Of a stretch of 64,000 bases of DNA, positions 5,152 through 60,063 are shown piece by piece. Under the pieces are notes generated by a model, which was not told the DNA's origin, did not search any database, and worked only from the letters and a program-made list of their open reading frames with translations. This DNA is from Loxodes magnus (lineage: Eukaryota; Ciliophora; Karyorelictea; Loxodida; Loxodidae). The position numbers and the translations under genes are program-made. The stretch's first letter is position 1. Every line of letters begins with the position of its first letter. The stretch covers positions 1,116,001 through 1,180,000 of the forward strand of contig CAMPDV010000012.1 in the NCBI GenBank assembly GCA_946699065.1, given 5' to 3'.

Positions 5152-7353
5152 ATGGAATAAACAGCAAAAAATAGTATATGAGGAAAGATAGATAAGCCAT
5201 GCTCTTTGGAGATAGACACTAAAAATTTTAGTTGTCATGAGGATATTTGATAGCATAGTACGTAAGGGTTCTAAAACTTAGAGGTTAGATAGTAATTTCT
5301 AAATTTTTGGGACTTTTAAGATTAAGAAATAGAAGACTTTGCTTCTTATAAAGTTGATTTAGACTCTTTTGATGATAATTATGGCTTCGAGGCATAAAAA
5401 TAAGCTATCTAAAAAGATTTCTGGTGTCAAACTCAAATTTACTAAAGCAATCAGCAAAGGTTCATAAATCAGAACTAAAACTTATTTTTAGCTGAGTAAA
5501 AATAAGAGTAAGAAATCTCAATCAAAGCTTCGAGGAATCAGATAAATTACTCTAATGAAAATCGATTCATTTGCTAATCAAAATGGTCGAAAGAAGAAGA
5601 TGATTTTCTAATAAAGATAAAGCAAGAGTAAAAGGAATTACCCTGGTTTGAAATTTGTCTTTCGATTAATGAAATGTTTCATAATAAAAATAAAAATAAA
5701 ATTAGAAATAGTAAATAAGTAAAGGAAAGATGAAGCAATCATTTAAATCCTGACAACAAAAAAAGTCCATGAACCTTTGAAGAAGACATAATTCTGATGT
5801 AAAAGTATCTAAGTGTAGGCCCAAAATGAACTTATATATCTAAATTTCTAGAAGGAAGAACTGAGCATAAAACTAGAAATCGAGGAAGAAATTTACTGAA
5901 TTAAATCAAAGCTAATGGGATAGACATAAGTCAAATGGATTTAGCAGCATAATTATAAAGTGAAAATTACAGTTAAAAAAACAACTATCATCAGAACATC
6001 TAATAAAAAACCGGATAATAGTCTGAAAGGATGAATTAATTAGAATAAACAAAAAAATCAGGTAAAAACATAAATATATAAACTAAGTTAGGCTAAATTA
6101 AAAGTTCTAAGAAGATAATATGCTCTTAAATTTAAAATCAAGCTGAAAAACAATATAGTTATCAAAGTCAAAATTAAGAGAGCATTAATTTTGAAAATGT
6201 CCCTTCTTTATACAAAATAACTCAAGTAAATGAAAAAATAAAAAATATTAATTTTAGACCAAGCAATAGTTATGAAGAAAAATAAGATATTTACTAAAAG
6301 AGAAATATTCAAAAATAATCCTTTATAGAATAAAATGTTCCTATAAATAATAACTTAAATTTAGTCAACGGAGATTATTGCAAATTAAACCAAAATAATC
6401 AAAATAAATAAGACAGTGGATAATCACACTTAAATTAGAATGAAGAAGAGATTAATTTAAAGTAATAAAAAGAGAAAGATGAGACTTCGAACTATAAATA
6501 ATTAGATAATAATTGTGATTTGGCTTACAAATAAATATTTATAAATCACTTAGATTAGGAGAATAAATTGTTTCAAATCTATCAGGACGAACGCTTTTTA
6601 ACTTTTTTCGAAGGAAAAAAGAAAAAAACTAAAATCCAGCTTCATTAAAGTACTCAAATCTTAAATAAAAAAATTACTTAGTCTGCAAAGAAAGCTCACA
6701 ATAACTTTAGTGAGAAAGCATAAATATATTGATTTTACTTTATTACTATTAACTATTATTAAATTACTCACATTATATAAAATAATATTAACTTTATTCT
6801 TTAAAAAAGAGATTTAACTAAACTTTATTTAATATTTATACTTATGATTAATATGATAAAAATAAAATGGAAAACTTCTTGCAAAAATTTCTTAGAAAAA
6901 TAATAAATCTTTCTTAAATAGCGATCAGCAAATTATCATTCAGGAACTTCGAAGGATGTAAAATGAGAATAAAAACTTTAAGGCCAGGAGCTTGAAGAAA
7001 AGATCTAATAAATTATTTCAAAAGTCTTAAAACTAAAGATTGAAAATCCACTAACAAAAAAATTTAGAATTAATTAAACTTTAATTTACAATAGGCCGAG
7101 TTAAAAGAAAACTTATTTCTTAATAATAAATCAACAAACGACCCCATGGAAGTGGAATCGAATATTTAGGCAGTAAAAATTCCTATACTTAAGAGAAGAA
7201 AATAAAATTATATGAAAACTAAGCTTTCCACTTGATCTATTTTCTCAGCATAAAAATCCTGATAGTATTTCTTTATCTCTTATCTTTAACTTTCTTGAAA
7301 TCATGATTGAGATAAAAGACTCCTAAATTACTAATAAATAAACTACTAAGTGA
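5152..7353 (+). CDS. Two-repeat Myb-like DNA-binding protein
   Basis: Read with TAA/TAG = Gln and TGA = Trp, the frame from the ATG at 5152 contains two Myb (SANT) helix-turn-helix repeats at about residues 145-250. Repeat 1 runs from WSKEEDDF through KERWSNHLNP; repeat 2 from SPWTFEED through PKWTYISKFLEGRTEH. Tryptophans 194, 207 and 226 of these repeats are TGA codons (5731, 5770, 5827), and Trp145 is TGG. Such proteins bind DNA in the nucleus as transcription factors; the target is unknown. The rest is Gln/Asn-rich and low complexity. A GT-AG interval at 6710-6895 looks like an in-phase intron; the frame then continues to a TGA at 7351. Without that intron the protein could end at the TGA at 6730. 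An in-frame ATG at 5125 is an alternative start. Confidence 0.85.
6710..6895 (+). other. Putative intron in the Myb gene
   Basis: Starts GTGAGA, ends TTCTTAG, 186 nt (a multiple of three), and is much more AT-rich than the flanking coding sequence. It contains an in-frame TGA at 6730 that would otherwise be Trp or stop. It preserves phase, so splicing cannot be proved by frame alone. Confidence 0.5.
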
Positions 7354-10300
7354 ATAATTTAATAATGTTAGTCTCTTCTGAATTTTTCTTAATAAAAAAA
7401 ATAATCTAATTGAATGACTTCATTCAAGTTTATGCTAAATTCAAATAACTTGAAGAAATAGAAAATAGAAGAAGATTAAAATATATAACTAAACAATTAA
7501 TTCTAATCAAATTTGGAAGGCTTTATTTATATATCCTTTTTATTTATAATTAACAAATTCTAAAAATATGCCTATCTTAATATGATCAAATCTAACTTAA
7601 CAATGAAGTTACTAGTATCTTAATTTTTTAAATATTTTATCTTTTTTAATTGTATGCAAAGAATCTAGATATATATTTTAATCTATTCTAAAAATATTAA
7701 TTAAGAAATGCTATTGTAAGTTTAACTATCATAAGTGTCCTATCTGTTTTAATGGAAGTTTTAAATACGAGTTAATTTAACATTATAAAGGGTTAAGATC
7801 TAGGAAGAATTTATTTTGGCTGCTATGAAAGGAATATACTGAGATTTTGGAGCATAGGATTAAAATTTAATCTATGATAAGGAAGTAAACTTAAATAGCC
7901 TATGCTGCTTATGATTGATAGCCTCTTAAAGAATTTATTATTGTCTATTTATTTTTTGAAATATTTTATTAATTAAATGTTTTCGCTTAAGTAAATATTT
8001 GAAAATTATAAAAATTAAGTAAAACTTTTATTTGATGAAAGAAGAATTCATTTTTTTTCAAATAATAAGAGCTAAAATTGAATGCTATACCTTTATCAAA
8101 AATTAACACTTTTTAATTATTCTAAAATAACTAAAATATTGATATTTTCAGTCTTGGATCCAAAAATTTCAAAATGATTATTTTTCTTACTTGTATGTGA
8201 ATTATAAAAGACTGCTTTAATAAATGTATTCTATAGAAGATTCTATTTTATTAGATTAGATATTCTAACCTTAATATTCGAAAAATCAGAGAATGCTAAA
8301 AGAATAAAGCAACCAGCAAATTAAATTTTTTATTTTATAAGGAGGCTTTTTCAGAATACCTTCTTGATATCAAATAATTTTAATTTAAGTAGCAATATTA
8401 CAAGATTAATAAAAAGGCTCAAGCAAAAAAAGGATATAATGATGTATTTTACATATTTAAAAGTAGAAGCTAGATAATTTCCATTTATAAAATATGTTAT
8501 ATGAACAATTCTACTTCCACTGTGATAATATATGCTTTAATTTTATTTATATTGCAGATAGATTAAATTGAAAGATCAAAGTAAAATTTATACGAAATTG
8601 ATTAAAATTTATTTCTTTGTATTAAGAGCTGTGAATAGTCCTTAAAAGTATTTTAATTTGAATCAAACTTTAATTTAGTCAGCAACTTAACTCTTAATTA
8701 TTATAGATAGAATTCCACTTTTTATAATAGCTAAAAAATTAATTCTCTCTAAGCTAACTTTTTGTCTTGTTATATTGAAATTAAGTTACTTAGATTAAGA
8801 GTTTTCAACAAAGATTCATGTTCCAATACTTTTTCCTTTCTTTTATTTATCTATTTTATATAAGAAATTTATATTTTATTCCGCAAAATCATTCATACTA
8901 TGCCAATTTTAAATAAGCACATTAACCAAACCCATATTTTTGCAAAAAGAATTAAATTTTTAAATTTTTATGAATAATCAAACTTTAGTATGTTAATAAT
9001 CTATAGTCAAAGGTTAATTATATATTAATAATTGGGGTATAAAGAGTAGATAATATTATATATTATAGAAATGATTTAAGCTATAAAAACATATTAAGGA
9101 GATATAAGCATCTGCTTAGTAAGCTATTATTGTATCTGTAGTTACTTAGAAATTGAGCAATATGAGATTCGAATATAAAACTGGAAGATTTATTAATGTC
9201 TTCATCTTATTTTTTCCAAATGTGAAGGTTTGATTTTCTTAAGTAGTTTTATTATTAAAAATTGTTCATGATAAAAAGGAGTCTTATCAAGTTTAATCAA
9301 AAAAAGTTAAGAGAAAAAGAAATAATGATAGAAGCAATTTGTATATATCAAGCATTTTTTTTATTGTAAACCTTTTAAATAATACTTTAAGTACAGTGTT
9401 ATGAAAGTATAGTTAATTTTTGAAATCACTGTAATATATGCATTAAATAGCTAAATCATTTTGAATATCTTTACTTTGAAGCATCGACATCATTCATATT
9501 GAAAATAGTTAAAAAATATAAAATTATATTAAGCTTAATCTAATTTATTTACTAACATACGTATAATAGAAGAAAAAATTGGTATTAAATGAATAGATCA
9601 AAAACTATTATCTATTTTCAAAATAAACTTTCTTCTAAGTTTAGAAGTTAGTTCCTAGCTTAAACTATAAAGGATTATAAAGCAAATAATTTTAAATTTT
9701 GTTAAAAATTAGATAAATATATATTTAAAAATTTACATAAAGCTACTATAAAGCACCTGTCTAAAGCTAATATTTATAAGAGAATGAAAAATAATTAAAA
9801 TTAAAATTTAAACTTTTATACCTTTAAGAAAATAAAGGAATTTAATTTTAGATACTTAAAATCAAGAATTAAGTTTTAGATACTTAAGACATATTTAATT
9901 ATGATTAATATACTATTTATGCATGTGAATGTTTGAATTTTTGCTTTAGTTTCATTTTTTTTAATTCTTCTATAAAAGAAAAATAAGGGAAAAATAGAGG
10001 GTTAGATATAGTCTAAATAAAGATATTTAAATTTAAAAATTTGGAAGTATTCAAATATTTGGATTTCATTTGATGGAAGAAGAATAAAAACAAGTTAGTT
10101 ATAATAATTTAAATTTATAGTTAAAATAAGAAATTAACTTAACTGTAAAGACTCGAAATAAAAATATAATTACTCCTTTAAGAACTTTAGAAATATAAGG
10201 GATTAAAATTTAAAGGATTATTATAAAGTTTTTATATAGATCAGCTGCAAATCAAGCATATTTAAAAATAGAATCCCATTTATATAAGCGAAAATTTTAA

Positions 10301-10776
10301 TTTTATAAACGAAAATAAAAAATAATAGTCCATATGATTTTCTCAATAAAAATGACAATAATTTTGGGGTATTAAACTAAAACAAAATGTTCAGTATAAA
10401 TAGTTTTATTCTATTTTATTATTTTGTTAAATATATTTTGCTTGATTCTAATTGAAGATTAACTATGTCTTTAGTGCTAAAAGAACTTTATTATATTATT
10501 TTGAAAAATGTATGAATAATTAAAATATGTGTAAATTATAGAGAATTAAATAAAATTTTGAATAAAATTAAAAAAATGTAATTTTATGCTAAATCAATAA
10601 GTTTTTGCTTTAATATGAGAATAAATCAGCTAGCTTAGCAAGTATTATTTTCTCTTATATTTCGATAAATAAATATTGTTTTTTTCATAGCTTTTTTCAA
10701 AGCTTTGAGATATGGTAAAAAAGATTGAAATTAATAAAATAAATAACAAGAATATAAATATAAGTATTAATTAATT
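7354..10776. other. AT-rich spacer with one possible gene fragment
   Basis: Mostly AT-rich sequence without recognisable genes. At about 7705-7780 one plus-strand frame reads CYCKFNYHKCPICFNGSFKY, a cysteine spacing reminiscent of a zinc ribbon or a partial zinc finger, but the continuation is low complexity and no start or stop can be assigned. It may be a gene remnant or chance. Nothing else is supported. Confidence 0.4.
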
Positions 10777-11421
10777 AATTTAAATAATTAAAAAGATGGT
10801 GGGAGCTGAGATTGACCTTCTGAATCATACTTTCTAGTTTTATGGCTAGGAACAAGTTCCTTTCCTGTCGCTGAGAAAGTCCCTGGCCAAAGTCAAACTT
10901 TGCAAGGGAACGCCTTCCTTTTGGTTATCCACTCCTGGTAGGGGCTTGAAGCCTGGTTGCCCATAGCGATGGAGCTCCCTGGCAGCTGCTTTTCGAAAGC
11001 AACAGGATATCCCCGTTATCCCATGAAGGGAGTGTTGGAGAAGTTAAACTGCAAGAAGTTGCAGTCCAAAACTCTTTAAGTTTAAAATAAAATAAAATAA
11101 ATTAATTAATTTCAACTAAAAAAGTTTTTGGACCGGAAACTCCTTTCCGATTGCACGACCCGACGCTCTCTTTTTATGGAATAACGGGGATATCCTGTTG
11201 TGCTCCAGGCACAGCTGCTAGGGAGCTCCATCGCTATGAGCAGCCAGGCTTCAAGACCCTACCAAGAGCGGATAATCTCAAAAACAGTGTTCCCTTCAGA
11301 AAATAACTCTGACAAGGGACTTTCTCAGCGACAGGAAAGGAACTTGTTCCTAGCCATAAAACCAGAAAGTGTTGTCACGAAGGTCATTCTCAGCTCCCAC
11401 CATCTTTTCAATTATTTATAA
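10777..11421. repeat. Long imperfect inverted repeat (foldback element)
   Basis: Two ~300 bp arms (about 10777-11078 and 11121-11421) are near-complementary, separated by a ~40 bp AT-only loop. For example, the left-arm start gatggtgggagctgag pairs with the right-arm end ctcagctcccaccatc, and acaggatatccccgttat pairs with ataacggggatatcctgt. The arms are about half G+C in an otherwise ~25% G+C region, with scattered mismatches. Such structures are known as foldback transposons or MITEs, and could also be transcribed as a long hairpin RNA. No transposase or clear target duplication is seen. Open frames across it are by-products of the arms. Confidence 0.85.
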
Positions 11422-11929
11422 ATATAAGTAAGCATCTAAAATTTATAACTTTAAAATAAAATATTTAGAAAGATGCTAATACTTAATTTTATCATTATTC
11501 TATTTTATATCATAAACCAGTCTAAGAAAAATCAAATTTAATACAAATCTCTGCTTTAACTATTTGAAAATATAACAATAACAGTAGTTAACTCAAATAA
11601 TAGAAGCAAATATAGTTTAAGTATTAATAAATCAATGGGTATTTATAAAATCTTAAAGATATAATAGATATAAAGAAGATTGCTATTATTATACTTATAA
11701 AATATTTATATTAGATCAAATAATACTTCTATTTATAAAACTTTGAAATTAATCATATAGATAAGTGATTTCATTTTAGAGTTAAGAGTTAGAATAATAA
11801 TTATTAAATTTAAAATTTGATAAAATATATGCATAATAAATTATTTTAACTATATTTAATAAGATTATTAATAACAAAATTTAAAATCATTATATCAAGA
11901 ATAAATAAAAAATGTATAAATTAATTAAT

Positions 11930-21485: not shown

Positions 21486-22559
21486 ATGAAGAGATTATAA
21501 AATATTGAATCTCATCTTCTTCCTATTTAAACTACTATCTTCAATAAAGTTCAGTTCAATAAATTAAACCTTCCAAATTCTCTGAACGCTTTAACATCAT
21601 AACTGTGCATTTGCCTTGAAGGAAAATTAGATACATTTTTATAAAATTCAGAACTAGAAACTTTTATATTAGGATCAACTTTAAACATTTTTTGCTGTGG
21701 AGGAGATATAAAGCTTTGTTCTTAATAACCGTCAGCTATCTAAGAACACTTCTAAACATAATTTTAGCTTGTAAATAAAATAGATTAAATAAAGGGAAAT
21801 AAAAAAAGTGCTGCTCTTTGAACTGGATTAGTTATGGGAGCTGGAGTTGGTCTTAGTATAGTATCCAAATAAAGAATCTGTACTGATGATACTTCTTGAG
21901 CAATGCCTGAAAGTTAGATCGGTTTATTTTGTGATGTTGCAGTAACTCTACATCTTGGAAAAATGTTGAGAGGAGAAAGTAGATGTATAGCTAATTACTT
22001 AGCTTTATTGGGACATAGAATAAATGCATAAGATCTAGTTCAGTTAGGAATTGCCACTCATTACGTATCTTAAGAAAATTGGCAATCTTTCATACAGGCA
22101 ATTGAATAAAAGAATATTAGTTTTAACGAAATCCTTTAATAATTTTGTTCTAAACCTAAAATGAAGGGAACTTTAGATTATGAACTCATAAAGGCTTGCT
22201 TCTAAGCGAGCTCGCTTATATAAATAAGAAAGAATCTTTAAAATTATGCAAATATTTAGAATTAAAACGCTATAAGTTGATTATAGTAGTTCAACTCTTT
22301 TTGTCCTATTTCAATGCAACTAACTTTTGAGTGTCTTTAATAAGATTATCTTACTTTAGAATAAGCGTTGAAGCGAGATTTCAATCTTTGCGTTCAACTA
22401 ACTTAGTACAGAAATTACAATTTTTTAAAAGGAGTAGAATACAAACTTTACAAAAAGCAGACATTTACTGAATGGAAGCCCAGAACAATAGACGAGCTTT
22501 CAAGAGAAGAGCTTGATAAATATTACTAGAACTCAGAAGGATCTAAACTAATTCTGTGA
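21486..22559 (+). CDS. HIBCH: 3-hydroxyisobutyryl-CoA hydrolase (crotonase superfamily)
   Basis: A single frame of 357 residues, the usual family length, runs from the ATG at 21486 to the TGA at 22557. The enzyme hydrolyses 3-hydroxyisobutyryl-CoA in valine breakdown, normally in mitochondria. Visible family features in order are LNLPNSLNAL near the N-terminus, the oxyanion-hole segment FCCGGDIKAL (residues 69-78), GLVMGAGVGLS, and AMPESQIGLFCDVA with catalytic Glu142 and Asp150 in the expected spacing. Then come YLALLGHRI and GIATHYV, and the C-terminal KGVEY...WKPRTIDEL found in hydrolases but not hydratases. Three internal TGA codons (21819, 21897, 22278) read as Trp; the second gives WAMPE where relatives have an aromatic residue. 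The Pro usually before the catalytic Asp is Cys. No clear presequence is visible. Confidence 0.93.
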
Positions 22560-24149: not shown

Positions 24150-25386
24150 TACCTTCTTAAAATCTAACTTTATTTATCCAAATTTCTCAACCATTTTGCT
24201 GGTTGCTTGCATTAGTTTAGAATCAATATAACTTCTTTAACTCAATTATTATAGCAAATTTTTAACATCTGCTTGGATCTTTTATTCCAAATTTTCAAAT
24301 TCTTTATTTTTTATAGTAATCACTTCTAAATACTGGGAATGTATTGAATCGTCAAATTTAAGGGTCCAAAATTAAATAATTATTAAAACTATTTGTATAT
24401 CTCATGGAGTGAATTGGTCATTTATGATTCTTTATATTAATTAAGTTTGCTTATCAAGTTAATTTCAACTATTATACCTTTGAGACTTTCAATATTTTCA
24501 AGTCCTAGTTGTTTTCTTATGATATTTTTTAACTTAAAATAACTCAAGATCTTTTAAATATTTTCCAGTTTCTAAAAGGATAATTGGACTTTAAGCAGCT
24601 ATAATTGTCCTAAGAATAATTCCTCTTTTTGCATAACCATCTATCTAATTTAGTTACAATCAACTTCTACATTAAAGAATTTTTTACATGCCATAAGAAC
24701 TTTAAAGCATCTGAGCTATTAACAGTAAATAAAATCTTGACAGATTAAATAGATTAAATGAATTATTGCATTTCGGTAAATAATTATGATGCATGCTTAT
24801 ATCTTTTTGAAGTTTCAGCAATAATCATATCATAATACTCGAAAATTTGCATATCCTATTTCTCTAAAATAAAAGGATGCATTTTTTTATAGCTTACATA
24901 ATCAGACTTCTAACCCTTGTAACTACTTTTTCAATCAATCAAAAGTTTCTACTCTGTTGTATAAGCACAAACAAATGTTTATTCAATTTTTTTTAATTAT
25001 ATTAATGATGCCAATTACAACGAGCATCTTTTTGGCAGCTCTTTATAAATCTACAAGCATTATACTAATATTTTTTCTTTTTGAGATTTGAAAGGCTTTT
25101 TATCAAAAGCAGTCATTCTCTAAAGCTCTGTTACAATAAATTGCTAAATTAATTTTTAAAGTTCCAGTTTCATCACCTTTATTCATTGTTTCATTTTCTT
25201 AGCCATATCTCTCGATCTTGCTACTTTATAAATATTAAAATTAGAGATTAAACAAGTAAATGCAATTTCCTTCAAACACAGAATAATAGTCTAGTTTTCA
25301 AATGTCTAGGTATTTTACAACTTTCTTAAAGCTACTTATATTTAGGTTTTTAACTCAATTAAAACCTAAAAACTAGTTTTAAACAT
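24150..25386 (-). pseudogene. Degenerate SRP54-like GTPase
   Basis: The minus strand from an ATG at 25386 follows the signal recognition particle 54-kDa protein from end to end, in decayed form. The N domain matches (LCLKEIAFTCLISNFNIYKV). The G domain has a recognisable G3-like segment (DMIIAETSKRYKHASQLFTEM), the G4 motif TKLD, then after a frame change DGYAKRGIILRTIIAAQSPI and KDLELF. An M-domain remnant follows (DQFTPWDI; KLMQATSKMVEKFG). The P-loop GxxGxGKT is absent: the equivalent position reads LQIYKELPKRC. DTxGR has become ETSKR. The frame shifts at least twice, first at TKLD by an extra ~4 bases. Functional SRP54 binds signal sequences and 7S RNA; this copy cannot bind GTP normally and is probably a dead paralogue. 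It converges with the upstream plus-strand candidate. Confidence 0.75.
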
Positions 25387-32415: not shown

Positions 32416-32778
32416 TCACAATTTGTCTGGGACTGAAAAACTATGTCCACATCCACATGTTCCGGTTGCATTTGGATTTTGAAATTTGAATTCTGAGTTT
32501 AGTCCATCTTCCACGTAATCAACTTCTGTTCCAATTACGTAGAGCAAGGCTTTTGAATCAATTCAGACATCCAAGGGAGTTCCTTCGGAATCTTTCAATT
32601 TGATATGTTCAAATCCTTTTGGCTTATCAAGAGCTATATCAAGTTTGTATGAAAGTCCTGAGCATCCCATTTCTTATAAGTGAACTTTGACACCAAGGGC
32701 ATTTTCCTGAGTGCCCTTAATTGTCTAAAGACGCTTGATTGCTTTGTCAGTGAAAGTCATCAACTGTCTAGCAGCCAT
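32416..32778 (-). CDS. ISCA1: IscA/HesB-type iron-sulfur assembly protein
   Basis: A 120-residue minus-strand frame starts at the ATG at 32778 ([17 protein letters not shown]) and stops at the TGA at 32416, the usual length of A-type Fe-S carrier proteins. The three family cysteines are present: Cys39 in EMGCSGLSY, and Cys108 and Cys110 in GTCGCGHSF. The conserved core ([27 protein letters not shown]) is intact. The family receives or carries iron-sulfur clusters, in eukaryotes usually in mitochondria for [4Fe-4S] maturation. Codon 72 (32563-32565) is an in-frame TGA read as Trp in DVWIDSK, where relatives have a hydrophobic residue. The N-terminus is short for a mitochondrial presequence, so an upstream exon is possible. 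Confidence in the family is very high. Confidence 0.95.
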
Positions 32779-34410
32779 CCTTGGATTATATTAAACAAAA
32801 GTTTAAAAAACAAAAACGTTTTCTTTATTCTCTTAAACCTAATAATTCAACACTTCCTTACTAATATTATTTCAAACCCTATGTTTTAAACTACATCGTT
32901 TAACTAAATTCCTAATTCTAGCATCTGCATTTATTAAGAAATAATTCTTCTTTATTATGAACTTTCTAGAAAAAAACAAACATATAGCGTCAAGAGTTAC
33001 TCCTACTCACTTGTCTTCTACTTATTTAGCTTAGTAAATTATATCAAATTTTCTCATTTCCATATCTTTGTTCTTCTTGTATCTTCAATTTGAAGCAAAA
33101 ACAGATAAAATTTGTTCTTAAATTTATTTAGTGGAAGCAAATTAAAAATGATAGAACTTTCTACTAGAATCCAGTTAAAGTCAAAATTTCGTTTGAATTG
33201 CTATAAATCTTTAAGTGGGAAGAAGATAAAAATTAAAAAAAGAAAAAGTTGACTTAACTAAGCAAAAGAGATGAAGCATTTTAAATATCTAATGGATACA
33301 TATCTGAATATTTTATTTTACAATCTTTATTTTATGTCTAATTAATGAGATTAGCTAAATAATTCAAATGAGTAGGTATTAATAATATGTTTACTATATC
33401 AAAAAGAAGATAAATCAATAAATTTTGTCTGTGCTTATTTAAATCAAATGAAAAATAATCTATTTCATTGACGCTTTGTGGGCAAATTATTAGAAATCAA
33501 CTATTTAGCGATTTCATTCTTTTGTTTTATAAAGTGATTATAAATTTTTTGCTATATATCTCATAACTACTATAAATATGTTTAATTTTAAGTTAATTTT
33601 GTATAATTTCTTTAATTTAAAAATAAGGAAAATACCTTTTCTTTAAAGAATATTTGAAGTATCTATTAAAGTTTATTTCATAAAATTTTAAACGTCTAAC
33701 CCATAAAAAATTTAATTTAACTTGAATGCATTTATTTGAATATATTTTAGACTTATTAACCAAATAGATAGGATTTTCTAATCTCTTTATTCCAACTAGT
33801 TTTAGTGATTCCTAATTAATAAAGTAAGCAGCTTTATGACTTAATAAACCTTTTATTAAAGCAATTTTAATTATAATTATAATTATATACAGCTTTTATA
33901 TTTAATAGCTAAAGGTAATGTTACATTAAAAACATTTTCTTTTATCTCGCTTTGAAAGGTCCATTCTATTTCAATAATTGATTCATATCTCTTTATTTTT
34001 ATTGCTAGCTTTAAATTTTAATTTCCTTAATTATATTTTTATAATCTAATTATTAAGCTAGCTTTCTAGAGAGTTTCTAAATAAATTATTTAATTAGATT
34101 TAAGAGAATATGATATTTAATCAAGAGTAAATAGAATTCTTTGAACCATTCTATTTAATATCTCTTTTAGAATCTTATACCTATAAAGACTCTCGTTTGA
34201 TAAATACTAACTTTATACTTTAGAATTAATTATTAATCTAAAATCTTCTTATAATGGTAGCTATTTGAGTTATTTAATCCTATAATTGTATAATATTAGA
34301 TATATATCTAATATTTCTAGTCATTATTTCTTTAATTTATATCATATAAACATTTTATTTTCATTATTAATAGAATGAACTTTAATTAAATTTTATTATA
34401 TATATTTTTT
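32779..34410. other. AT-rich spacer
   Basis: About 1.6 kb with no recognisable gene or repeat. It holds the 5' flank of the IscA-type gene on one side and ends at R1 copy 2. Confidence 0.5.
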
Positions 34411-36156: not shown

Positions 36157-36852
36157 ATGGCACAGTCAAATCAACTTACTCTCTATTCTCATCCAGGGTC
36201 TCCTTATGTAAGAGCTATTCTCTCGCTGCTCTATGATGCTGATATTCAATTTACTGAATAATTCGTGGACATCATGAAGGGTGAGTAGAATACTGAGGAG
36301 TATAAAGCTATCAATCCTTTCTGTAAAGTTCCTGCTATCAAGGATGGAAACTTTGCACTATATGAAAGTACTGCTATTCTACGTTATATTTGTAGAAGCA
36401 GAGGACTAACCAAATACTATCCTGAAAATGATTTCGCTAAAGCAGCTGCCGTAGATAGGTTGTTCGGACTTTCACCATAAAGTTTCGAATAAACTGTTGG
36501 AAAAGTAGTTTATCTAAGACTTTTCGCACCATTAAGAGGAATAACAGTAAATGAAGAAGAGGTCTAGAAGTTAATGTAAGAAGGATCTTCTAATATCTAA
36601 AAGTTCGAAACTTTACTAACAAGTTCTTTTATAGCTGGTGAAGAACTTACTATTGCTGATATGTACTTATTCGCTGTTTTGTCTCAGCCTGTATTGCTTA
36701 TTTCTTTAGATTTAGCACCTTTCCCAAAATTAAAGGCCTGGTATGAACGAGTAGCAGTTTGCAAAGGACCAGCAAAAGGACTAGAGAGATTCAAGGAAGC
36801 AATTGCTGCTTTCTAGGCTTCTTAGTAGGCATAGCAGGCTTCAAAATAATGA
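36157..36852 (+). CDS. Glutathione S-transferase, theta/phi-like (GST copy 1)
   Basis: A 231-residue cytosolic-type GST. It has the thioredoxin-fold N-terminal domain (LTLYSHPGSPYVRAI), a glutathione-site cis-proline segment (KVPAIKDG) and the ESTAILRYI motif binding the glutamyl moiety (around residues 70-78). An all-helical C-terminal domain follows, with the N-capping/hydrophobic staple region SFIAGEELTIADMYLF. It conjugates glutathione to electrophiles or reduces peroxides. The position-15 Ser in PGSPYVR is the likely thiolate-activating residue, as in theta and phi classes. TAA/TAG codons read as Gln, there is no internal TGA, and the stop is the TGA at 36850. The Gln/Ala-rich C-terminal tail is unusual. 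This is the first of three paralogues and is about 94% identical to copy 3 by eye. Confidence 0.95.
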
Positions 36853-40059: not shown

Positions 40060-40082
40060 TGTAAAATATTCTATTTTTATAA

Positions 40083-40793
40083 ATGGCATAGTCTAACTAA
40101 ACTTCTTAGCTTATTCTTTATTGCCATCCAGGTTCGCCTTATGTACGTCCTATTCTCTCGTTGCTTTACGAAGCAGATGTTCCATTTATTGATCAATTTG
40201 TAGATTTAATGAAAGGAGAGTAAAGTTCGGAATAATATAAAGCTATCAATCCTTTAGGTACAGTTCCTTGTATAAAGGATGGTGATTTTGTACTGTCTGA
40301 AAGTACTGCTATTCTGCGTTATATTTGCAGAAGTAGAGGACTAACTAAATACTATCCTGAAAATGATTTCATTAAAGTAGCTTCGATAGATAGATTATTT
40401 GGTCTCTGTCCTTCATTCTTTGAATAAACAATAGGAAAGGCAGTTTCTTTAAAACTTTCTGTAGCAAGATATGGAAAAGCTTTAAATGAGGAAGAATTCT
40501 AGAAGCTTCTTTAAGAAGGTACTTCCAATATAAAAAAGTTTGAAACTCTGCTAACTAATTCTTTCATTGCTGGAGAAGAAATAACTATTGCTGATATGTA
40601 CCTATTTTCTATAATTTCTCACGCTGTTTTTTTTATTTCTTTTGATCTAACACCTTTTCAAAAATTTAATGTCTGGTATGAGCGTGTAGCTGCTTGTAAA
40701 GGACCTACTAGAACTATTTAGAGATTCAAAGAAGCGATTGCTGCTATATAGGCTGCTTAGGAATCAAAATAGGCTTCATAGTAAGCTTAATGA
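40083..40793 (+). CDS. Glutathione S-transferase, theta/phi-like (GST copy 2, divergent)
   Basis: A 236-residue paralogue of the neighbouring GSTs with the same architecture: LILYCHPGSPYVRPI, TVPCIKDGDF, SESTAILRYICRSRGL, SFIAGEEITIADMYLF. It is clearly more diverged from copies 1 and 3 than they are from each other, especially in the C-terminal helical (substrate-binding) domain, where SHAVFFISFDLTPFQKF replaces SQPVLLISLDLAPFPKL. It therefore probably has a different substrate range. No internal TGA; stop at 40791. Its ATG is about 24 bp downstream of an R1 repeat. The extended Gln/Ala/Ser tail is longer than in the other copies. Confidence 0.94.
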
Positions 40794-44337: not shown

Positions 44338-44497
44338 ATTAAAGTTGCATTATTATTTTGCTACTTACTAAAGTACGTTTTGGAATTGTTTACATAAAGA
44401 TTTTACCAAGTAGAAGCTTTAGGTGTTTAAAAGTTTATCCATTTTATTCTAGAATAATTAATTAGTTTATAAACCAATTTCATTCCATTTTTTATAA

Positions 44498-45184
44498 ATG
44501 GCACAGTCAAATCAACTTACTCTCTATTCTCATCCATTTTCACCTTATGTAAGAGCTATTCTCTCGCTGCTCTATGATGCTGATATTCAATTCACTGAAT
44601 AATTTGTAGATCTCATGAAAGGTGAGTAGAATACTGAGGAGTATAAAGCTATCAATCCTTTCTGTAAAGTTCCTGCTATCAAGGACGGAAACTTTGCACT
44701 AGCTGAAAGTACTGCCATTCTACGTTATATTTGTAGAAGCAGAGGACTAACCAAATACTATCCTGAAAATGATATCGCTAAAGCAGCTGCCGTAGATAGG
44801 TTGTTCGGACTTTCACCATCAAGTTTCGAATAAACTATTGGAAAAGCAGTTTATCTAAGACTTTTCGCACCATTAAGAGGAATAACAATAAATGAAGAAG
44901 AGATCTAGAAGTTAATGTAAGAAGGAACTTCTAATATCTAAAAGTTCGAAACTTTACTAACAAGTTCTTTTATAGCTGGTGAAGAACTTACTATTGCTGA
45001 TATGTACTTATTCGCTGTTTTGTCTCAGCCTGTATTACTTATTTCTTTAGATTTAGCACCTTTCCCAAAATTAAAGGCCTGGTATGAACGAGTAGCAGTT
45101 TGCAAAGGACCAGCAAAAGGACTAGAGAGATTAAAAGAAGCGGTTGCTGCTTTCTAGGCTTCTTAGAAAGCATAGCAGGGCTGA
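44498..45184 (+). CDS. Glutathione S-transferase, theta/phi-like (GST copy 3)
   Basis: A 228-residue near-duplicate of GST copy 1 (about a dozen substitutions, such as Gly14 to Phe in HPFSPYVR next to the active-site Ser). It has an identical domain layout: KVPAIKDG, ESTAILRYI, SFIAGEELTIADMYLF. It ends GGC TGA AAG TGA. The first TGA (45182) is taken as stop; reading it as Trp would add two residues before the TGA at 45188. The promoter-proximal sequence differs from copy 1 because a retroelement ends about 145 bp upstream. The Phe14 change could alter glutathione binding; that is inference. Confidence 0.94.
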
Positions 45185-50971: not shown

Positions 50972-53900
50972 ATGAAAAACTATTCAAGCGCAGATGAAAT
51001 GGTTAGAAACCTTTTCAACTAGTAAAGGGAAGCTAATATCCATATTATGGATAAAGACTCACGAATTGCAATTAAAAATTATCTTTACTCTCTTCTTAGC
51101 TCTTTGAGAGACAAGGCTTATGAATTCTACTTGTAGTAGTAGAATTAGTAGATGGAAGTCATGTAATAAATATTCCCTTTTAAGGAAAAACTCATGTATG
51201 AGTTTAAGGAAGAAGATCTTGAAACTAAGAAAGCTTGCTTTGAAGAAATCTCCAAATTCTTCGGGATTAGGGAAATTTAGATTTTTGTTTAGAAAGCCAT
51301 TCACATTATGGACTCTCTTTACAATACAACCACTTTTAGACAGGATTGGGAAGACTAAAAGTGAATCCTCGGTGTTTAGTGTCTAGCTATCGTTTTGAAA
51401 TATGAAGGCAAACGAGATGCCTTAATGAGAAATATGTCGAGGGGAGTTCTTAATTAGATAAATGGGCTTTGGGATGGAGATGCTCTTTAAAAGGAAACTC
51501 TTATCATTCAAACCCTAATTAAAAATAGGTTGCCTATTGTATAGCAAACAGCTACAGAGAGTATTGGCATAGTTCTAAACTGACTATCTAATAACTATAA
51601 ATTATCAGATTGGGTAATTAATAAGGTATACATCTTGAGTCTTATTTATGGAGATATCTGCTATAATAGTAAGCTTTTAACATTTAGGCAATTGGATTTT
51701 AAAAGGAGATCTAGTAACTGCTGTTTCAAGTCTTAAATGTGCTTTTTTGCATTATGGATATGATATAACCGAATGGATAGATACAATGGCAAGATAATGT
51801 GGATGCGATTAAAATAGAGAGCTAGTCTATGTAAGGTTTAATTATTCAGCTTTAAATTGTAAACTGCTCTATGTATATAATGGATGAAATAAAGAAAATT
51901 CAGAAATCCTAAAAGCAAATTTAAAAATGTTTCTCCATCGTTTAAAAACTAAAACTCGAAAAGCAAGCTCTAAACTAATGTTAATAGCTTAGAGAGTTCC
52001 AAAATAAAATAAACAAGTAAGTTATTAATTTTTCAGAATAAACATAGACAAAAACAGATTTATGGGTCAAATAGAAAGTAAAAAGAAAATAAAGATCTAG
52101 TGAGTATAATTATTTATCCCTGTTTTAAATCATTTATTTGGTAAATTTCCCTTATATCATAATTTTTTTTATTTTGTACAATTAATTAGAAACATTTCAA
52201 CTATAATCATTTCTTACCTTTTATTAAATCTTTATCTTTTTAAGTTTTAAGAGGAGTACAAGAAGTTAATGGTCAACTTAGATTTTTCGGATAAACTTCA
52301 TATAGTTAATTTCCCAGGAAAAGTAGCAAATATTTAAGTTCTAAAGTTTCTAAAAGAAAGTCACATTAATGTTCATCGAACTGAATTCACCTTAATCTAA
52401 TGATAATTAAAATGCAGCTTTAATTAAATAAAATAAAGCAATATTAATTAAATCTTAGTCTTTATTGTAATTAGTACCTAACATACAAACAAATGATAAA
52501 AGTCTAATAAAAGAAACTTAAAGGTTTAAAGCTATAAAAGGGAAGTTTATATAATTTATTTTAAAATTTAATAAATAAATTCATTAGAGTAGTTTAATTT
52601 CCACCTTAGAAAATTAATCCGTTCTCAGAGTCACTTTGCATCAAGATATACTTGCTCTAAATAATTTAAACTCCTTAAGATTTTTCCTTTTACATGATAT
52701 TTATAAGTATCTAATTAATTTTCAGGATGATAAGCTAGTAATGATTCTAAATTATAAGTATTAATAATATATAAGAGAGAATAAATAGAGTGAGGAAGAT
52801 AGTTTAGAGTAAGGATAAATTACAGTAGCAAATTAAATAGTTACTTTATAATTTCAATTTAAATAAAATTTAGACTATTAGAATAATCTGATAAAGCTAA
52901 TTTAATGCAAGAAAAAATAAAATAAATTGAATTTATTTTAAGCAGCTTGAATGGGTTTTCGCCTTCATAAGAAAGTAAGAAAGAAGATGAATCTATAACC
53001 TCTAAAGTCATAGTAAGCAAAATGGAATCAGTTAAAATTAACAGTGTCGGAGATTTTTCGTAGAATTTGTTAGATTTAAAATAGCCCTAACAGAAATTCT
53101 CATAGAGCTTGTAAATTTTGCCCGAGAATCAAGACGAAACGTGTAGTGATAAAAAGCCTATAAGTTTTATGGGATTTTTAAAGTCCTTGAATATGAGTTT
53201 TGAGGAAGAGCTAACTTTGTTCAAGTTACTGGATAGTTTCTCTTAAGATAAAAAGTAAAACAGTGATCAAATATTCTCCTAACAAAGAATCAAATAAATT
53301 ATCTAAATAATAAGAAAATGATGAACTTACGATTAGAGCATTCCGTATATTTTCAATTAATAGACTTAAAAATTTTACGAGGATGTAGTCAAGAAATTAA
53401 ATGAAATACAAAATGAAGTAGTACACTACCTACATATAACCATTCAAAGCCGTTAAATCAATTGAAACAAAATTGCATCTAATTTTCAGTAGGAGAAGCA
53501 ATCAGAGGTAGAGAAAAATAATTTTTTTTACGATTCCGATATAAACGTTGATGATTATCTCCAAGAGTTGAATGTTTTCATAGTAAACCAGCAAACATAA
53601 GAACTTCAATAGAAGAAAATCCAGAAAAACTGTAAAAAAGAGACTTAAGAAGACCTGGAATAGCGTTATAAGTTTTCTAATGATGAAAGCATAGAAGAAT
53701 GCCTAAATATAGATTTAGAAAGCGAACTTTGCAACTCCTAATTAGAAAAATAATAATATGAATTTACTGAAAATTATGACAATAAGCTAAAGAAAAAGGA
53801 GTAAGAAAAAATGAAATTGTAGAAGCTGATGATGCAGTAACAAATAAAATTAAAGCTTATAAATGAGCAAATTAGTTTCTTTAAATAGTAGAAAGAGGTA

Positions 53901-54272
53901 AAATTGACTGTTCCTTAGGTTTCAATCGAGAAAGAATCTTTTTATCGTTCTTAAATCCAAAATATTATGAAAGACTAACAAAATTATAAATCTGAAAATG
54001 TTAATTATAAAAAGGAAGAGAAAGGAGATTTCAAATAGGACTAAAATGGCTCTATAGATTGAAATAAAAAAGTACAAAAGATCGCTTTTTAGATGAGACA
54101 TGTAAAAAATTTCAGTGATTTTGAAAATGAATCTCTATTTTTGAAAGAACTTGCGCTAAAAACTAAAAGAGTTAGACAAGAATGCGATTAGAATGGTTAC
54201 AAGCAAAGTGAGTTTGAAAACAGTAACTAGAAGAATCGAAAATTATAGGAAAAAGGAGAGGCAACAATTTGA
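50972..54272 (+). CDS. Cyclin-like protein with long C-terminal extension, four exons
   Basis: Exons 50972-51668, 51688-52099, 52245-52808 and 52874-54272 join in phase to 1023 residues ending at the TGA at 54270. The first ~330 residues fit a two-lobe cyclin fold. The N-lobe has MDSLYN...DQKWILGVQCLAIVLKYEG, like the cyclin helix ending KYEE. The C-lobe has KETLIIQTL, then IYGDICYN joined across the first intron to SNWILKGDLVTAVSSLKCAF. Cyclins activate and target CDK-type kinases. The remaining ~690 residues are Gln/Lys/Glu-rich with coiled-coil-like stretches and match nothing I recognise. TGA codons occur internally (for example DQKWILG). Intron positions are inferred from frame and GT-AG ends. 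The cyclin call is moderate; a general cyclin-box or scaffold protein is the alternative. Confidence 0.65.
51669..51687 (+). other. Very short putative intron (19 nt) in the cyclin-like gene
   Basis: GTAAGCTTTTAACATTTAG. Removing it restores the frame and joins the C-lobe helix sequence. An alternative 49-nt GT-AG interval (51639-51687) also restores the frame but deletes cyclin-like residues. Confidence 0.5.
52100..52244 (+). other. Putative intron (145 nt) in the cyclin-like gene
   Basis: Begins GTGAGT and ends CTTTTTAAG. It is T-rich and much more AT-rich than its flanks, and its removal is needed to continue the frame. Confidence 0.65.
52809..52873 (+). other. Putative intron (65 nt) in the cyclin-like gene
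   Basis: Begins GTAAGG and ends AAATTTAG; splicing restores the frame into the long C-terminal exon. Confidence 0.6.
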
Positions 54273-56516
54273 TGCTTATTAAAACTTTAGTATTATTCAA
54301 TTTCTTAATTTAAGCAATAAAAATCTTAATCGTTAAATAAAAATCTTAATCGTTAGAATCCTTCATTGATTTTAGAAAAATAAAATGAGACGTTTCGTTA
54401 CTTCATTTAAGAGAAATAATAGTTATTATGATAATAATTGATTATTTAGAAAAGAAATTTTGATTTTAAAGTTAAATATTTTGTTTTCTTTAATATACCA
54501 TTTTGATAAAACTTAATTATGATTAAAAAGTAAAATAAACCTGCTTAGTCAAATTTAGTTAAAGTAAATTAAACATAGATTTCTTAATAGTAAGCACTAG
54601 TTTTTATAATACCTTTATTACTCATTTATAGATACGAAATTTTTTTTATTATATTAATATTTCTACTCTTGATTCAATAAAACGGAATTACTAAGATAAA
54701 TTGACTGGAGAAGTATTATTAGTCCATTGATTGTAAATTATTACTTTTTATCCTTATTTATATATTATCAATCTTAAACTTTTGACTTATAATTCATTTA
54801 TTATTTATGAGTTTTAGCTTTTAGACTAGAAATTTACTATTTATAAAGATTGGCATAGAATCATTTTTCTGAAGATAAATCCCTAATTATATCTATTTTA
54901 TTATAAAGCTGTATCAATTATATTTAAATCTACTTTTGATATTTATCCTAGTGCGTTATAGCTTTAACTAAACAATAAGAATTTAAATTATTAATTTGAG
55001 ACACAAGTATCACTTAATTTTAGTTAGTTTGATAATCTGTTAGGCAGACTAAAGCTAAATTTAATCGGTTTATTTATTTATATCCGTATTAAAATACTTT
55101 TCCACTGTTTTTCAAAAGATAATCTCAAGCTCTGAAAAAAATGCTCTATCAAATATCAGATATGAATTTATTATCAATATCAAGAGTAGAAAAAAGATTA
55201 ACTATCTCTGTTTTACCTCTCTTATATCTACTTATATAATGGGTAGCACTAAATACTTAGAATAGAATACCTTTTTATTTCTTTAATAGCTTATATTAAT
55301 CATATACAATGCTATTATAATCAAAATTTATGTATTTTTGGGTTATATTTTAAATTAAAAAATAATGAAGAAATATTAATTTAAGCTAATAGCAGCATTA
55401 ATAAACTCAACTCTATTATAATTAAACTATCTCTGTTAATTCTTCCATTGATATGTATCTTATTATTCTTAACTTTAAGTTGTTAGTTAAATTAAATTTA
55501 TTCAAAAGTAAATTGCTTTGAAAATATCAAATGGAGCTCTTTATTTATATAGAATTGAAGTTAATTCTGAATATTGTTTCATTATCTAATAAGTGTTTTA
55601 TATAAGCTTTTTTATTTATTATTTTCAATTTACTAGACTAGAATTCTTCTATTTACCTCTTTTACCAAAATATTACTTTCTAATTTAATAATTCTTCAAT
55701 TTATTTCTTAGTAATCTGGTTCCTCTTTTATAGCAGTATAATGATACTTAAAAGGAAAGAAAGCTAGGAGTTAATTTACTTACATTCATTTAGTATACCA
55801 AAATTATTATGCTAGATAAATTACAATGCTATTAGCTTTTTATTAGCCTTTATTAATTTTCCTATTAAGCCCTATGCAGTTGTTTCAATGAAAGCATTAA
55901 AATAGCTAAAGAATAAGTTTTTTTCAATTACTCTATAAACATAATTTATACTCAAGTTTGAACTACAATTTTTATGAAAATTGCTTTCCTTTTAAATAAA
56001 AGAGATTAAAGGTATATTCTGATTATAGTTATTTTAATTTGTAGTTAGCTTATAATTAAAAGGATTAAGCATATTTAAATACTAAAATGATATATTTGTT
56101 TTATCTTATATATAAGAGACATTAATTAAAAGCAATACTTACTTAGAATAAAACCATTATATGCTTAATAATAGAAGGAATAGTTCTATTTATTAATTGT
56201 TTAATTAAGGATTTTTATTGTGCTTAAAAGCATTAAATAATTGGTTTTTATAATTTTGCTTCTAACTTTATTAACTAAAGATAGGTAAGCCTTGCAAATG
56301 GGAAGTTGCAAGACACTTTTAAATAATAAGTAAATGGTTTATTAGAGATTTCTTAGTTATATCGAACAAATGAGCAAGCATATGAAATGGAACTATTAAT
56401 TCTTAAATTTAAGAACATTAAAATGACTAATTATGTTTTCTAAAGATATTGTTTATATATAACCTATATAGCCTCTTTGAAGTTAGAGTTAATCTTGCTT
56501 ATTATTGTATTGTAAC
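54273..56516. other. AT-rich spacer
   Basis: About 2.2 kb without a supported gene. It contains a small tandem duplication of aataaaaatcttaatcgtta at about 54316-54355. Confidence 0.5.
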
Positions 56517-57434
56517 TCATTTTTAGCCTTTATTAGTAAAAAAATTCTTAAATCTTAAATAAAGTTATTACTCTATATTAGTTCTTGTAAGCTTGCTATA
56601 TAAGTAATAGCAAAAGCCTATTGAAAATAGGTTATTAAATTAGGTATTAAAAATAATAAAAATCTTCTAGTGTGATTCTTTAAATTTAATAACTTCATTT
56701 GATGAAAAAATATTTTAAGCTCTTAATGGGTTGTTGACGAATAATATAATCTGTCTTAGATAAATAACAAAAAAATTAAATTAAGAAATTTTAACTTTAA
56801 AGACTTTGTGCTGTATTCTTTTCGGATACTTCTATTTTACCATTAACGACTGTCTAAACTCTTATGCGAAGTCCTTAAATTGAATTTCATTGAGATCTTG
56901 TATAGTTTCAAATCCTTTCAAATATCCTAAACTTTCTTAATTTATTATCACTTTTTTGAACTACTTGAATCTTATCTTCCCAACTATTTAGTCAGATGTC
57001 AGAAAGCAATCTTGTTGCTAGCTATTTTTCTACTAAGCAACACCAGAACCAAGAACTCCAAAATTACTCTTTTGTTAGATGCTAGCTCTTCTTAAAATTT
57101 TGATTTTATTACTCATGTAGCTTTGTCACTTTTTTTGTAAGATTGTAGAAACAGAAGCTTTAATATAAGGAATTGGGCTTTCTATAACTTCTTCATTGCC
57201 TTCAAAATAGTTATTAACTCTTAGTTTCTACCTGCTAGAAACAGCTTATTTAATATATCTAATATAAGAGTCATTAATCTGGTAATTGATCAGTGCCTCT
57301 TCTTTTTTCGGCTTTATTTTAGCAGTGAATGGTTTTCTAACCTATTTATTAAGTGCTCCTTAAGGACTTTCAATTAATGAAGATTTCTTTCTTTTAATAT
57401 TAGTCAAGTCAAGTCGAATATTTGGTCCAGACAT
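56517..57434 (-). CDS. Uncharacterised basic protein
   Basis: A minus-strand frame from the ATG at 57434 (MSGPNIRLDLTNIKRKKSSL) runs 305 residues to a TGA at 56517. The first ~230 residues are clearly coding in composition: Lys-, Gln- and Ser-rich, for example KPFTAKIKPKKEEALINYQ and QKKWQSYMSNKIKILRRAS, with Trp from an internal TGA. The last ~70 residues are lower complexity and the true end may be earlier or spliced. No domain, signal peptide or membrane segment is recognised. The basic N-terminus would suit a nuclear or cytoskeletal protein; this is only a guess. Confidence 0.65.
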
Positions 57435-59157
57435 TTTATATATTTAATATAGCTTTATATTCATAAAGAGCATATTTCATAATCTATAAAAAACCTTTTA
57501 CTTATTTAATTTATGGACCTTTAATTTAAAAAACTGGAGCTTAAATACATTAATACTTATTATCTAACTAAGCTACTACATACTATATCACTCTTTTAAT
57601 ACTAATAATGTTAAACCCTACCCAGCTATTTTGATTTGTCTATTTTAAACTACTCTTTATATTCTTAATTTCTTTCCTCAACTGCTATATGTATAAAACT
57701 AAGTGCTTTGCTTAATTATAGATCTAATTTATCAATTCTGATACTTTAAAAAGGATAACAAGTACTATTACTTTTTCTTAAATCTTCCAATTATTTTTTT
57801 ATTTGAGTGGTCATATCTTAAAAACTGGGATTAAAACAGTGTATAAATGATTTAAAGTAGTAAAGGACTAAATATAATATACATAGTGAATAGAAGATAA
57901 TTGAATATATAGATTCCTTATGAATTATTACATCTATTATTTCTAATTACTTAGGTTAAATCATTCAACAGTTCCTCCTATAAGGCTAATAGTAATTAAT
58001 AGCAAGCTTAATATTTTTCTACCTCTCTCTTTGAGCTATTTTTATTTATAATTATAAGCATTTTTTAGCTTTTGTTTAAGTGATTTCTAGAATCCTTAAG
58101 AACAAAGCTAGAATGAATTTAAATTTACTTATATTTAAATTAAACTAAAAGTCTAAAGCACTTATCTCTCTTTAAATTGATAAGCAAGTATATAAATATA
58201 TTTAAGACATCGAGAATATAAAAATGATTGATAAGTAAATGGGATAATGATTAAGTAAAGAGAATAAAGAGATTAAGATTAAATAAGTTTAAGCTATGAA
58301 ATATAGCTATCTAATTAATTATTGATAAGATAATAGTCTAATAATTTATTCTCTCTTCTATATCTAAATTTAGTTTAAAATTAATTTATAACTTTAACTA
58401 AATCCCTTATGCCACCTTTAAGAAACTATAGTAATATAGGGAAGAGAAAAAGCCTTTTAATTAAGTATAAACAAAAGTTTTAGCCTTATATATAAGAATT
58501 GTACTTATTTAACAAATATAGCAAAGGTATTTTAATAGTTAATCAATTATCCTACTATCAAAATCCTTTTTGCATATGAATATTTTAAAAGATAATTGTA
58601 TTTACTAAACATCGAAATTGATATCAATCCATGAAAGAATATCTTAAAGCAGTGAAAATTATCAATTTATATTTCTGAAATTTTTAAGAATTTATCATAA
58701 AAGAACAATTACTTAGAGAATTAGCTAGCTTCTACCTAAAAATAAAATCATTTATGAATTTTAAAAAATTGGCCCATTTTATTCAAACATAAAAGTTAAT
58801 ATTCAACTGGAAATAAACAAAATTAGATCCTTAAAATATAAAATAATTAAGTTTCTCTTAGAAAAAAATTGAAAGCTGACATACCTCTCACCTATAAGCA
58901 TGATATTTAATAATAATTTTAAAATAGATAGAAGAAAAATATCTTAAATAATTCCATCAATAATTTATTTAAAAGCAAGCTGGTAAAATAGCTTAAATAA
59001 ATCATTTATAGAAATTTGAAAGATATTCAAAAAATTAGAAAAAGGGTCTAACGGAATTTTCTTTATTCGGTTTTGAAATAATTTTAATTAGTTTCCAAGT
59101 AATTTAAAAATAAAGTTTAACTGAAAGTTAAATTGTTATAATTGACATCGAATTAAT
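57435..59157. other. AT-rich spacer between divergent genes
   Basis: About 1.7 kb between two divergently transcribed genes (starts at 57434 minus and 59158 plus), so it should contain both promoters. No further gene, repeat or motif was recognised. Confidence 0.5.
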
Positions 59158-60063
59158 ATGTCTTCGTAAACTAACGATAAAAAGAGATCAAGGTAAAAGG
59201 AAGTTTAGGATAAAGTTACATAAGAGAACTCGAAGGCAAATAAGAGATAAAAAGCAAACCCTAAATAAGAGAATAATGAGAACAATAAAAGCTAAAGTCA
59301 AACTTAGTCCTAGCCTAAATAAAACGAAAGAAAGATATTATCATAGTAATCTAATAACAATAAATAGAAATTACCTTAAAAGGAAAATGCCAAATAACCA
59401 GGTTAGAGATAAAATGAGTTATAAGCTAAGTAAAATTAGTTAAAATAGGACTCTGAATTGTCTGACGCAAATGCAAAAAAGAAATCTTACAAAAAAGTAA
59501 AACTATCAGATGAAGAGTATAGAGTTGGCGATAACGTTATAGTTTTGGTAGAGGGAGAACTAGATGAAGATGGTAATAAGCCCTTTTCTGTAGGGAAAAT
59601 TGAGTAGATCTTTATTCTGAATGATAACAAAACAAAACCTTATGTTAAAGTGACATGGTATATGAATGCTAAAGAAATAAATAAAGAATATGACTTTTTC
59701 GGCGACTCTGAACTTTTCTTAAGTAATGCTTAAGAGTAAGTGGAAGCAACTTCCTTAGATGGCCACTGTTAAATCTTGACTCTTGAAGAATATGAAAAAA
59801 GTGAAGAAAAGGAAGGAGAAGACCCTGTTTTCTATGCTAGAGCTAGCTGGGATATTTAAAAATAGAAATTTAACCCACCAATTAGCTAGTGGCCTAAAAA
59901 CTGTTACTGCAAAAAGCCAAGCAATCCTGATAAGGCTTATGTATAATGTGATTAATGCGAGAAATGATTTCATCTAGAATGCGTCTAACTTACGAAGGAA
60001 GAATGTGGCAAGGACTGGAAATGTAAGAAATGCGAAAAGAAAAATCAAAAAGAAAGCGAGTGA
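59158..60063 (+). CDS. BAH-PHD chromatin reader protein
   Basis: A 301-residue frame from the ATG at 59158 to a TGA at 60061. Residues 1-115 are a Gln/Asn/Lys-rich disordered tail. Residues ~118-245 form a BAH domain (YRVGDNVIVLVEGE, PFSVGKIEQIF, VKVTWYM, the FFGDSELFLS region and DPVFYARASWD). Residues 249-292 are a C4HC3 PHD finger with ligands C249, C251, C264, C267, H272, C275, C289 and C292. The invariant PHD tryptophan (Trp270 in CEKWFHLEC) is a TGA codon at 59965, only 96 nt before the TGA stop. This arrangement matches plant EBS/SHL-type readers, in which BAH and PHD bind methylated histone H3 tails. A nuclear role in transcriptional control is inferred. Confidence 0.93.

Follow-up and report, generated by a model that had tools for sequence, protein, structure and literature searches.

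How can a codon that ends genes also be read within them? The question is raised by a stretch of 64,000 nucleotides from the assembly of the karyorelict ciliate Loxodes magnus (GCA_946699065.1, contig CAMPDV010000012.1, positions 1,116,001 to 1,180,000 of the forward strand), referred to here as the window. According to a first-pass annotation, TGA is tryptophan (Trp) inside its genes and a stop at their ends, and TAA and TAG are glutamine (Gln), as in the nuclear code of karyorelicts with context-dependent UGA. Almost certainly, the window is nuclear Loxodes DNA, most likely of L. magnus, using NCBI genetic code table 27, with UAA/UAG read as Gln, UGA read as Trp or stop, and UGA apparently read as selenocysteine (Sec) in a few genes—the last being a third reading that the annotation, otherwise supported on the dual role of UGA, did not mention. 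Table 27, in which UGA is either Trp or stop, has been described for Loxodes (PMC11441545), and neither its use in this genus nor the short-stem tRNA-Trp considered below is new. The observations made here concern codon correspondences, gene ends, tRNA genes, the eRF1 sequence, and the anatomy of selenoprotein genes. Searches for tRNAs, eRF1, and the Sec machinery were run on the parent assembly, whose 7843 contigs total 705,730,643 bases.

The window genes that bear on the question are as follows.

5551..5928, plus strand: two Myb repeats, with TGA 5731, 5770, and 5827 opposite Trp in Myb homologues.
21486..22559, plus strand: 3-hydroxyisobutyryl-CoA hydrolase (HIBCH)-type gene, with internal TGA 21819, 21897, and 22278 and presumed stop TGA 22557-22559; the position of the start is conjectural.
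32416..32799 (5′ end approximate), minus strand: IscA-type iron-sulfur gene, with internal TGA 32563-32565 and stop TGA 32416-32418.
36157..36852, plus strand: glutathione S-transferase (GST) gene 1, with TAA/TAG as Gln and presumed stop TGA 36850-36852.
40080..40793, plus strand: GST gene 2, with presumed stop TGA 40791-40793 (by eye).
44516..45184 (5′ end approximate), plus strand: GST gene 3, with presumed stop TGA 45182-45184 and a further TGA two codons later.
59158..60063, plus strand: BAH-PHD reader gene, with TGA 59965-59967 at the PHD Trp and stop TGA 60061-60063.

At all eight individual positions where the annotation had placed an internal TGA, the codon is present in the expected frame, seven on the plus strand and one (32563-32565) on the minus strand. 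Translated with TGA as Trp and TAA/TAG as Gln, the corresponding frames match Pfam families: Myb_DNA-bind_6 for the Myb frame (E 8.2e-13), ECH_2 for the HIBCH-type frame (E 7.6e-65), Fe-S_biosyn for the IscA-type frame (E 3.1e-14), and both BAH (E 4.4e-18) and PHD (E 2.9e-7) for the BAH-PHD frame. In alignments to solved homologues, c-Myb and v-Myb were found to have Trp opposite each of the three Myb TGAs, in agreement with the proposal that these occupy invariant Trp positions of the two repeats; with the Trp columns counted by eye, the chance that three of three TGAs fall on 4 Trp columns of 63 is about 1e-4. Equally, TGA 59965 lies opposite the Trp of the BAH-PHD proteins SHORT LIFE and EBS, as had been proposed for the PHD finger. 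The claim for the HIBCH-type gene held in part: all three TGAs are in frame, and opposite 21897 the human HIBCH relative has Phe and the yeast one Trp, but 21819 (opposite Ile or Met) and 22278 (opposite Gln) are not in Trp columns. In the IscA-type gene, the TGA is also in frame, but its column holds Val in bacterial IscA and Phe in SufA rather than Trp. Counted by column, four of the eight TGAs thus stand at Trp and one at Trp/Phe, and three are uninformative. A single other residue consistently facing TGA, looked for as the pattern contrary to the annotation, occurs in no alignment; nor does any displayed alignment require an intron at these sites or show an insertion across them. A membrane protein said to have TGA at ten of its thirteen Trp, for which no coordinates had been given, was not found by a scan for hydrophobicity and TGA or by Pfam searches of 32 candidate frames.

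Exchange among paralogues gives a second, larger view of the code. An alignment of 18 genes in five families (seven TrxR/GR, that is, thioredoxin and glutathione reductases, four GPx, two SelD, two eRF1, and three GST) comprised 6246 codons. The count excludes L063, which nearly duplicates L061, as well as the Myb loci L001-L008; L066 is a partial gene. These genes contain 22 TGA codons, two of them at the SelD Sec site, versus 36 TGG codons. TGA changes most often to TGG (23 of 66 changed ordered pairs), and the two codons share seven columns (TrxR/GR 42, 60, 120, and 400; GPx 24, 130, and 149). TAA, TAG, CAA, and CAG (187, 84, 87, and 18 occurrences, respectively) interchange, with TAA/TAG accounting for 271 of the 376 codons read as Gln. 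At invariant sites, the Gln of the GGQ motif is TAA in both eRF1 copies, and the Gln of PCNQF in the four GPx paralogues is TAA, TAA, TAA, and TAG; the Trp of WNFGKFL in the same four is TGG, TGA, TGA, and TGG. Both GPx residues are presumed to be catalytic. In TrxR L065, the TGAs upstream of the Sec site lie opposite Trp of thioredoxin reductase 1 in four of four cases (by eye; p about 7e-9) and opposite Trp of thioredoxin reductase 2 in three of four, the fourth being Phe (also by eye). By alignment, therefore, UGA stands for Trp inside genes, and the assignment of TAA and TAG to Gln is borne out both by their exchange with CAA/CAG and by the invariant Gln residues that they encode.

The tRNA genes agree with these assignments. 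For tRNA-Gln(UUA), at least 100 exact pattern matches were found, and ARAGORN confirmed all 12 of the loci fetched; because the 453 matches obtained with three mismatches allowed may include ordinary tRNA-Gln, the UUA anticodon is claimed for the 100 listed exact matches only. Nineteen of the exact matches are repeated in tandem, in units of about 275 bp (C214:232607-237603). Two matches to an earlier tRNA-Gln pattern were discarded, ARAGORN seeing no tRNA in them. A tRNA-Trp pattern accepting both anticodons gave 129 matches, of which three are tRNA-Sec, 117 were read as tRNA-Trp, and nine were left unread. All 117 copies read have the anticodon CCA, and in 115 of them this is combined with loss of the 27-43 pair, leaving a 4-bp anticodon stem, and a 7-base loop. 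The annotation had suggested looking for a tRNA-Trp able to read UGA, and these 115 copies are the candidate. They lie in two long tandem arrays, one of 48 copies with A27.C43 on contig C67 (L083) and another on contig C148 (L084, L085) with 67 copies read, all U27.C43. The 4-bp anticodon stem of Loxodes tRNA-Trp is already in print (PMC13092985 and PMC12005148, citing Swart et al.); two kinds of broken 27-43 pair were not found in the portions of these two short-stem accounts that were available.

Changes in eRF1, which the annotation had also proposed as a check, are present. L050 is eRF1 (NCBIfam, E 2.9e-121), and L051 is, by reading, a near copy of it. Aligned with the human protein, and with residue numbers that we assume to follow the usual scheme, they differ by Glu55→Ala, Thr58→Arg, Ser60→Gln, Ser70→Ala, and Tyr125→Phe. 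Both contain RAQNIKS and FLCENTF, together with Ala at the Ser70 position. The same two motifs and Ala70 are printed for Loxodes striatus eRF1 in a review table (PMC4695839); the window's parent genome thus carries motifs identical to those of a Loxodes eRF1 regarded as recognizing UGA only, and the motifs point, at the level of sequence, to the genus Loxodes. The two genes lie 35 kb apart on contig C196, and in each the TGA stop has a second TGA three codons downstream. L049, the top eRF1_1 match, was rejected, being Dom34/Pelota (NCBIfam pelota, E 1.5e-60).

Gene ends were examined in 20 genes (19 by motif, GST gene 2 by eye), the stop being assigned as the first TGA past the homologous C-terminus. 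In 16 of the 20—BAH-PHD, IscA-type, two eRF1, four GPx, four TrxR, two glutathione reductase, and two SelD—TGA is also the first of the three classical stop codons (TAA/TAG/TGA) past the homologous part, as expected if UGA is the only stop. The other four (HIBCH and GST genes 1-3) are uninformative: in-frame TAA/TAG stands between the homologous part and the TGA, so that ending at this TGA presupposes the code. Within the window, a TGA end is therefore independent evidence in two (BAH-PHD and IscA-type) of the six genes whose ends were read, and the statement that the same genes end at TGA stands for these two, and for HIBCH only if TAA/TAG is read through. The 64 kb hold 141 frames of at least 150 aa if TGA alone is counted as a stop, and long open frames are no evidence of genes here, in line with the annotation's remark that stop-free frames carry little information.

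Several observations weigh against this reading of the code. Three of the eight internal TGAs (21819, 22278, and 32563) face no Trp, and in the paralogues 43 of the 66 changed TGA pairs have a partner other than TGG, mostly a codon for Phe, Ile, Tyr, or His. TAA is replaced most often by GAA (82 of 556), so that the distinction between Gln and Glu is not sharp from the paralogues alone, and the invariant sites are more telling. The last 20 codons are free of TGA in 15 of 19 ends, the four exceptions being the TrxR Sec codon, but the measure is partly circular, since taking the first TGA as the stop produces part of this absence by construction. Two singleton tRNA-Trp genes on contig C110 (L086, L087) keep a normal U27-A43 pair and a 5-bp stem, nine of the 126 tRNA-Trp pattern matches are unread, and we infer the insertion of Trp at UGA from sequence.

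Of the alternatives, the one that survives best, improbable as we consider it, is that UGA is read not by the 4-bp-stem tRNA-Trp(CCA) but by a tRNA-Trp(UCA) of its own, encoded in the nucleus or imported from the mitochondria. Every ciliate mitochondrial genome sequenced up to 2016 is reported to have a gene for such a tRNA (PMC4967479), and a looser, UCA-only pattern gave a single match, on contig C454. That match looks degraded, however; its anticodon stem has no 3′ strand as printed, and for that reason it resembles a pseudogene. Among the 100 listed of the 129 two-anticodon matches, moreover, 97 have CCA, and the three with UCA are the tRNA-Sec genes. Among the 117 copies read there was no cognate nuclear tRNA-Trp(UCA), a negative that covers nuclear pattern matches only, with nine of these unread and mitochondrial tRNA-Trp(UCA) not searched for.

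A Condylostoma-type code (table 28), with UAA, UAG, and UGA all both sense and stop, is less probable still. Internal TAA, TAG, and TGA are all present; Condylostoma is a heterotrich, and heterotrichs are the sister group of karyorelicts (PMC11441545); and HIBCH and the three GST genes could end at TAA/TAG past their homologous part. Against this code stand the 16 ends at which TGA precedes any other stop codon, as well as TAA/TAG codons that are read through within the aligned C-terminal portions of eRF1, SelD, and GPx L059. To the idea that the genes of the window are decayed or spliced copies, with TGA an ordinary stop or lying within short introns, we give next to no credence: Loxodes introns are very short (PMC11441545) and an SRP54-like window gene (about 24.4-25.0 kb, minus strand) shifts frame, but the alignments cross the internal TGAs without insertion, paralogues have TGG at TGA sites, and TAA/TAG make up 271 of the 376 codons read as Gln.

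Table 27 therefore remains the preferred reading, and the karyorelict code with context-dependent UGA is upheld by the swap of TGA and TGG at seven columns, the swap of TAA/TAG with CAA/CAG, and the Loxodes-type eRF1 motifs. A mechanism can be proposed on this basis. UAA and UAG would be decoded as Gln at least partly by tRNA-Gln(UUA). UGA would be read as Trp via the 4-bp-stem tRNA-Trp(CCA), a decoding step taken from the literature, and as stop at gene ends by an altered eRF1, whose restriction to UGA is likewise adopted from published work. Whether UGA is stop or Trp would depend, by the published rule, on how close it lies to the poly(A) tail. A few genes have a downstream hairpin resembling a selenocysteine insertion sequence (SECIS) element, and in these one UGA would be read as Sec.

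The machinery for this third meaning appears to be in place. Three tRNA-Sec(UCA) genes score 73.9, 70.5, and 63.5 bits (Rfam cut-off 47), with the anticodon TCA assigned by ARAGORN; the same search gave 49 further matches under the cut-off, of which the three looked at are tRNA-Ser, and it gave matches in 14 of 14 control genomes, above the cut-off in five. For SepSecS, one frame covers profile positions 2-388 of 389 (E 1.9e-104, above cut-off; 3 of 14 controls also match). SelD is represented by two matches, both above the cut-off (13 of 14 controls match, two above cut-off), and both genes (L069, L070) contain KG-TGA-GCKVPQ, the TGA of which we take to be the Sec site of homologues. Among ten TrxR-family matches, five are above the cut-off (L061-L065, four of them distinct) and five below. 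All five of the former end in TGC-TGA-GGT-TGA (GC-TGA-G-TGA; for example, L061:2947-2967), whereas the three of the latter that were read do not have this end. The C-terminal GC-TGA-G is presumably the known GCUG Sec site of thioredoxin reductase. Upstream of it, each of L061-L065 has between two and four TGAs that are read as Trp, so that one TrxR gene apparently uses UGA as Trp, then as Sec, and then as stop. Thioredoxin reductase with a C-terminal Sec has been reported in the ciliate UGA triality (PMC4967479). GPx was rejected as a selenoprotein, with Cys at the active site in all four copies, and the two SelW/SelT-type (Rdx) matches are partial, beginning past the CxxU site.

Two codons past the TrxR stop, a backup TGA is found in all five loci. 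Only 0-2 of the six bases between stop and backup are identical among the four distinct paralogues, and TGA makes up 1.6% of window trinucleotides; ciliates with reassigned stop codons are reported to favor tandem stops (PMC6879139).

Each of the four distinct TrxR genes is followed by a hairpin that has GTGA and NGA-type core strands and begins 41-43 nt past the start of the Sec codon, with folding z-scores of −1.74 (L061), −2.11 (L062), −5.58 (L064), and −2.78 (L065). Both SelD genes have a hairpin about 23 nt past the stop (z −4.44 and −5.86). These hairpins are likely SECIS elements, although Rfam identifies none of them as such; their MAFFT alignment was poor, and for this reason no covariance model was built. 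If a SECIS element follows the stop, the outer fold pairs place the stop at least about 76-96 nt (TrxR) or about 74-75 nt (SelD) from poly(A). In L. magnus, the 3′ untranslated region has a mean length of 53 bp and a median of 41 bp, and sense UGA is depleted for about 20 codons ahead of the stop (PMC11441545). The stop UGA of selenoprotein genes would thus lie beyond the median 3′ untranslated region, and it is conceivable, if doubtful, that nearness to poly(A) is not the whole rule and that the SECIS complex or the backup UGA aids termination. Summing the published figures, sense UGAs begin some 60 nt before ordinary stops, or about 100 nt from poly(A); a rule of nearness to poly(A) is therefore strained, but not broken, by stops at least about 74-96 nt away.

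Compared with the karyorelict code described for L. magnus itself (PMC11441545), the same assignments are seen—UAA/UAG as Gln, UGA as Trp or stop, UGA as the sole stop, in the same genus—and, relative to the parts of that description consulted, the window shows no departure. UGA triality (Trp, stop, and Sec) is in print for Condylostoma magnum and the karyorelict Parduczia (PMC4967479), where TrxR likewise has a C-terminal Sec; tRNA-Sec(UCA) is common to Loxodes and Condylostoma. No published statement of triality for Loxodes was found in a limited literature search, itself weak evidence of absence. The Loxodes side consists of five TrxR loci, two SelD genes, and a backup TGA in five of five TrxR loci. 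The tRNA-Trp shares the CCA anticodon and the loss of the top anticodon-stem pair with the short-stem tRNA-Trp of Blastocrithidia and Condylostoma (PMC13092985, PMC12005148), but differs, as far as the sections consulted go, in having two arrays with different broken pairs, A.C (48) and U.C (67 read). Unlike in Loxodes, genes in Blastocrithidia are reported to end with UAA, and UAR is read as Glu.

Two further features of the window were noted. GST genes 1-3 are neighbors, probably by local duplication. The SRP54-type GTPase gene at about 24400-25000 (minus strand) has its match spread over two frames, both under the Pfam cut-off, and since the match is split between frames, a short intron is probable.

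For the window as a whole, lineage and code are settled, and its frames are to be read with table 27. The selenoprotein genes are a natural setting in which to test how three meanings of one codon are kept distinct by a cell: in TrxR, a single Gly codon separates the UGA apparently read as Sec from the UGA read as stop. If the reading is true, one gene would carry three UGA meanings, two of them within three codons.

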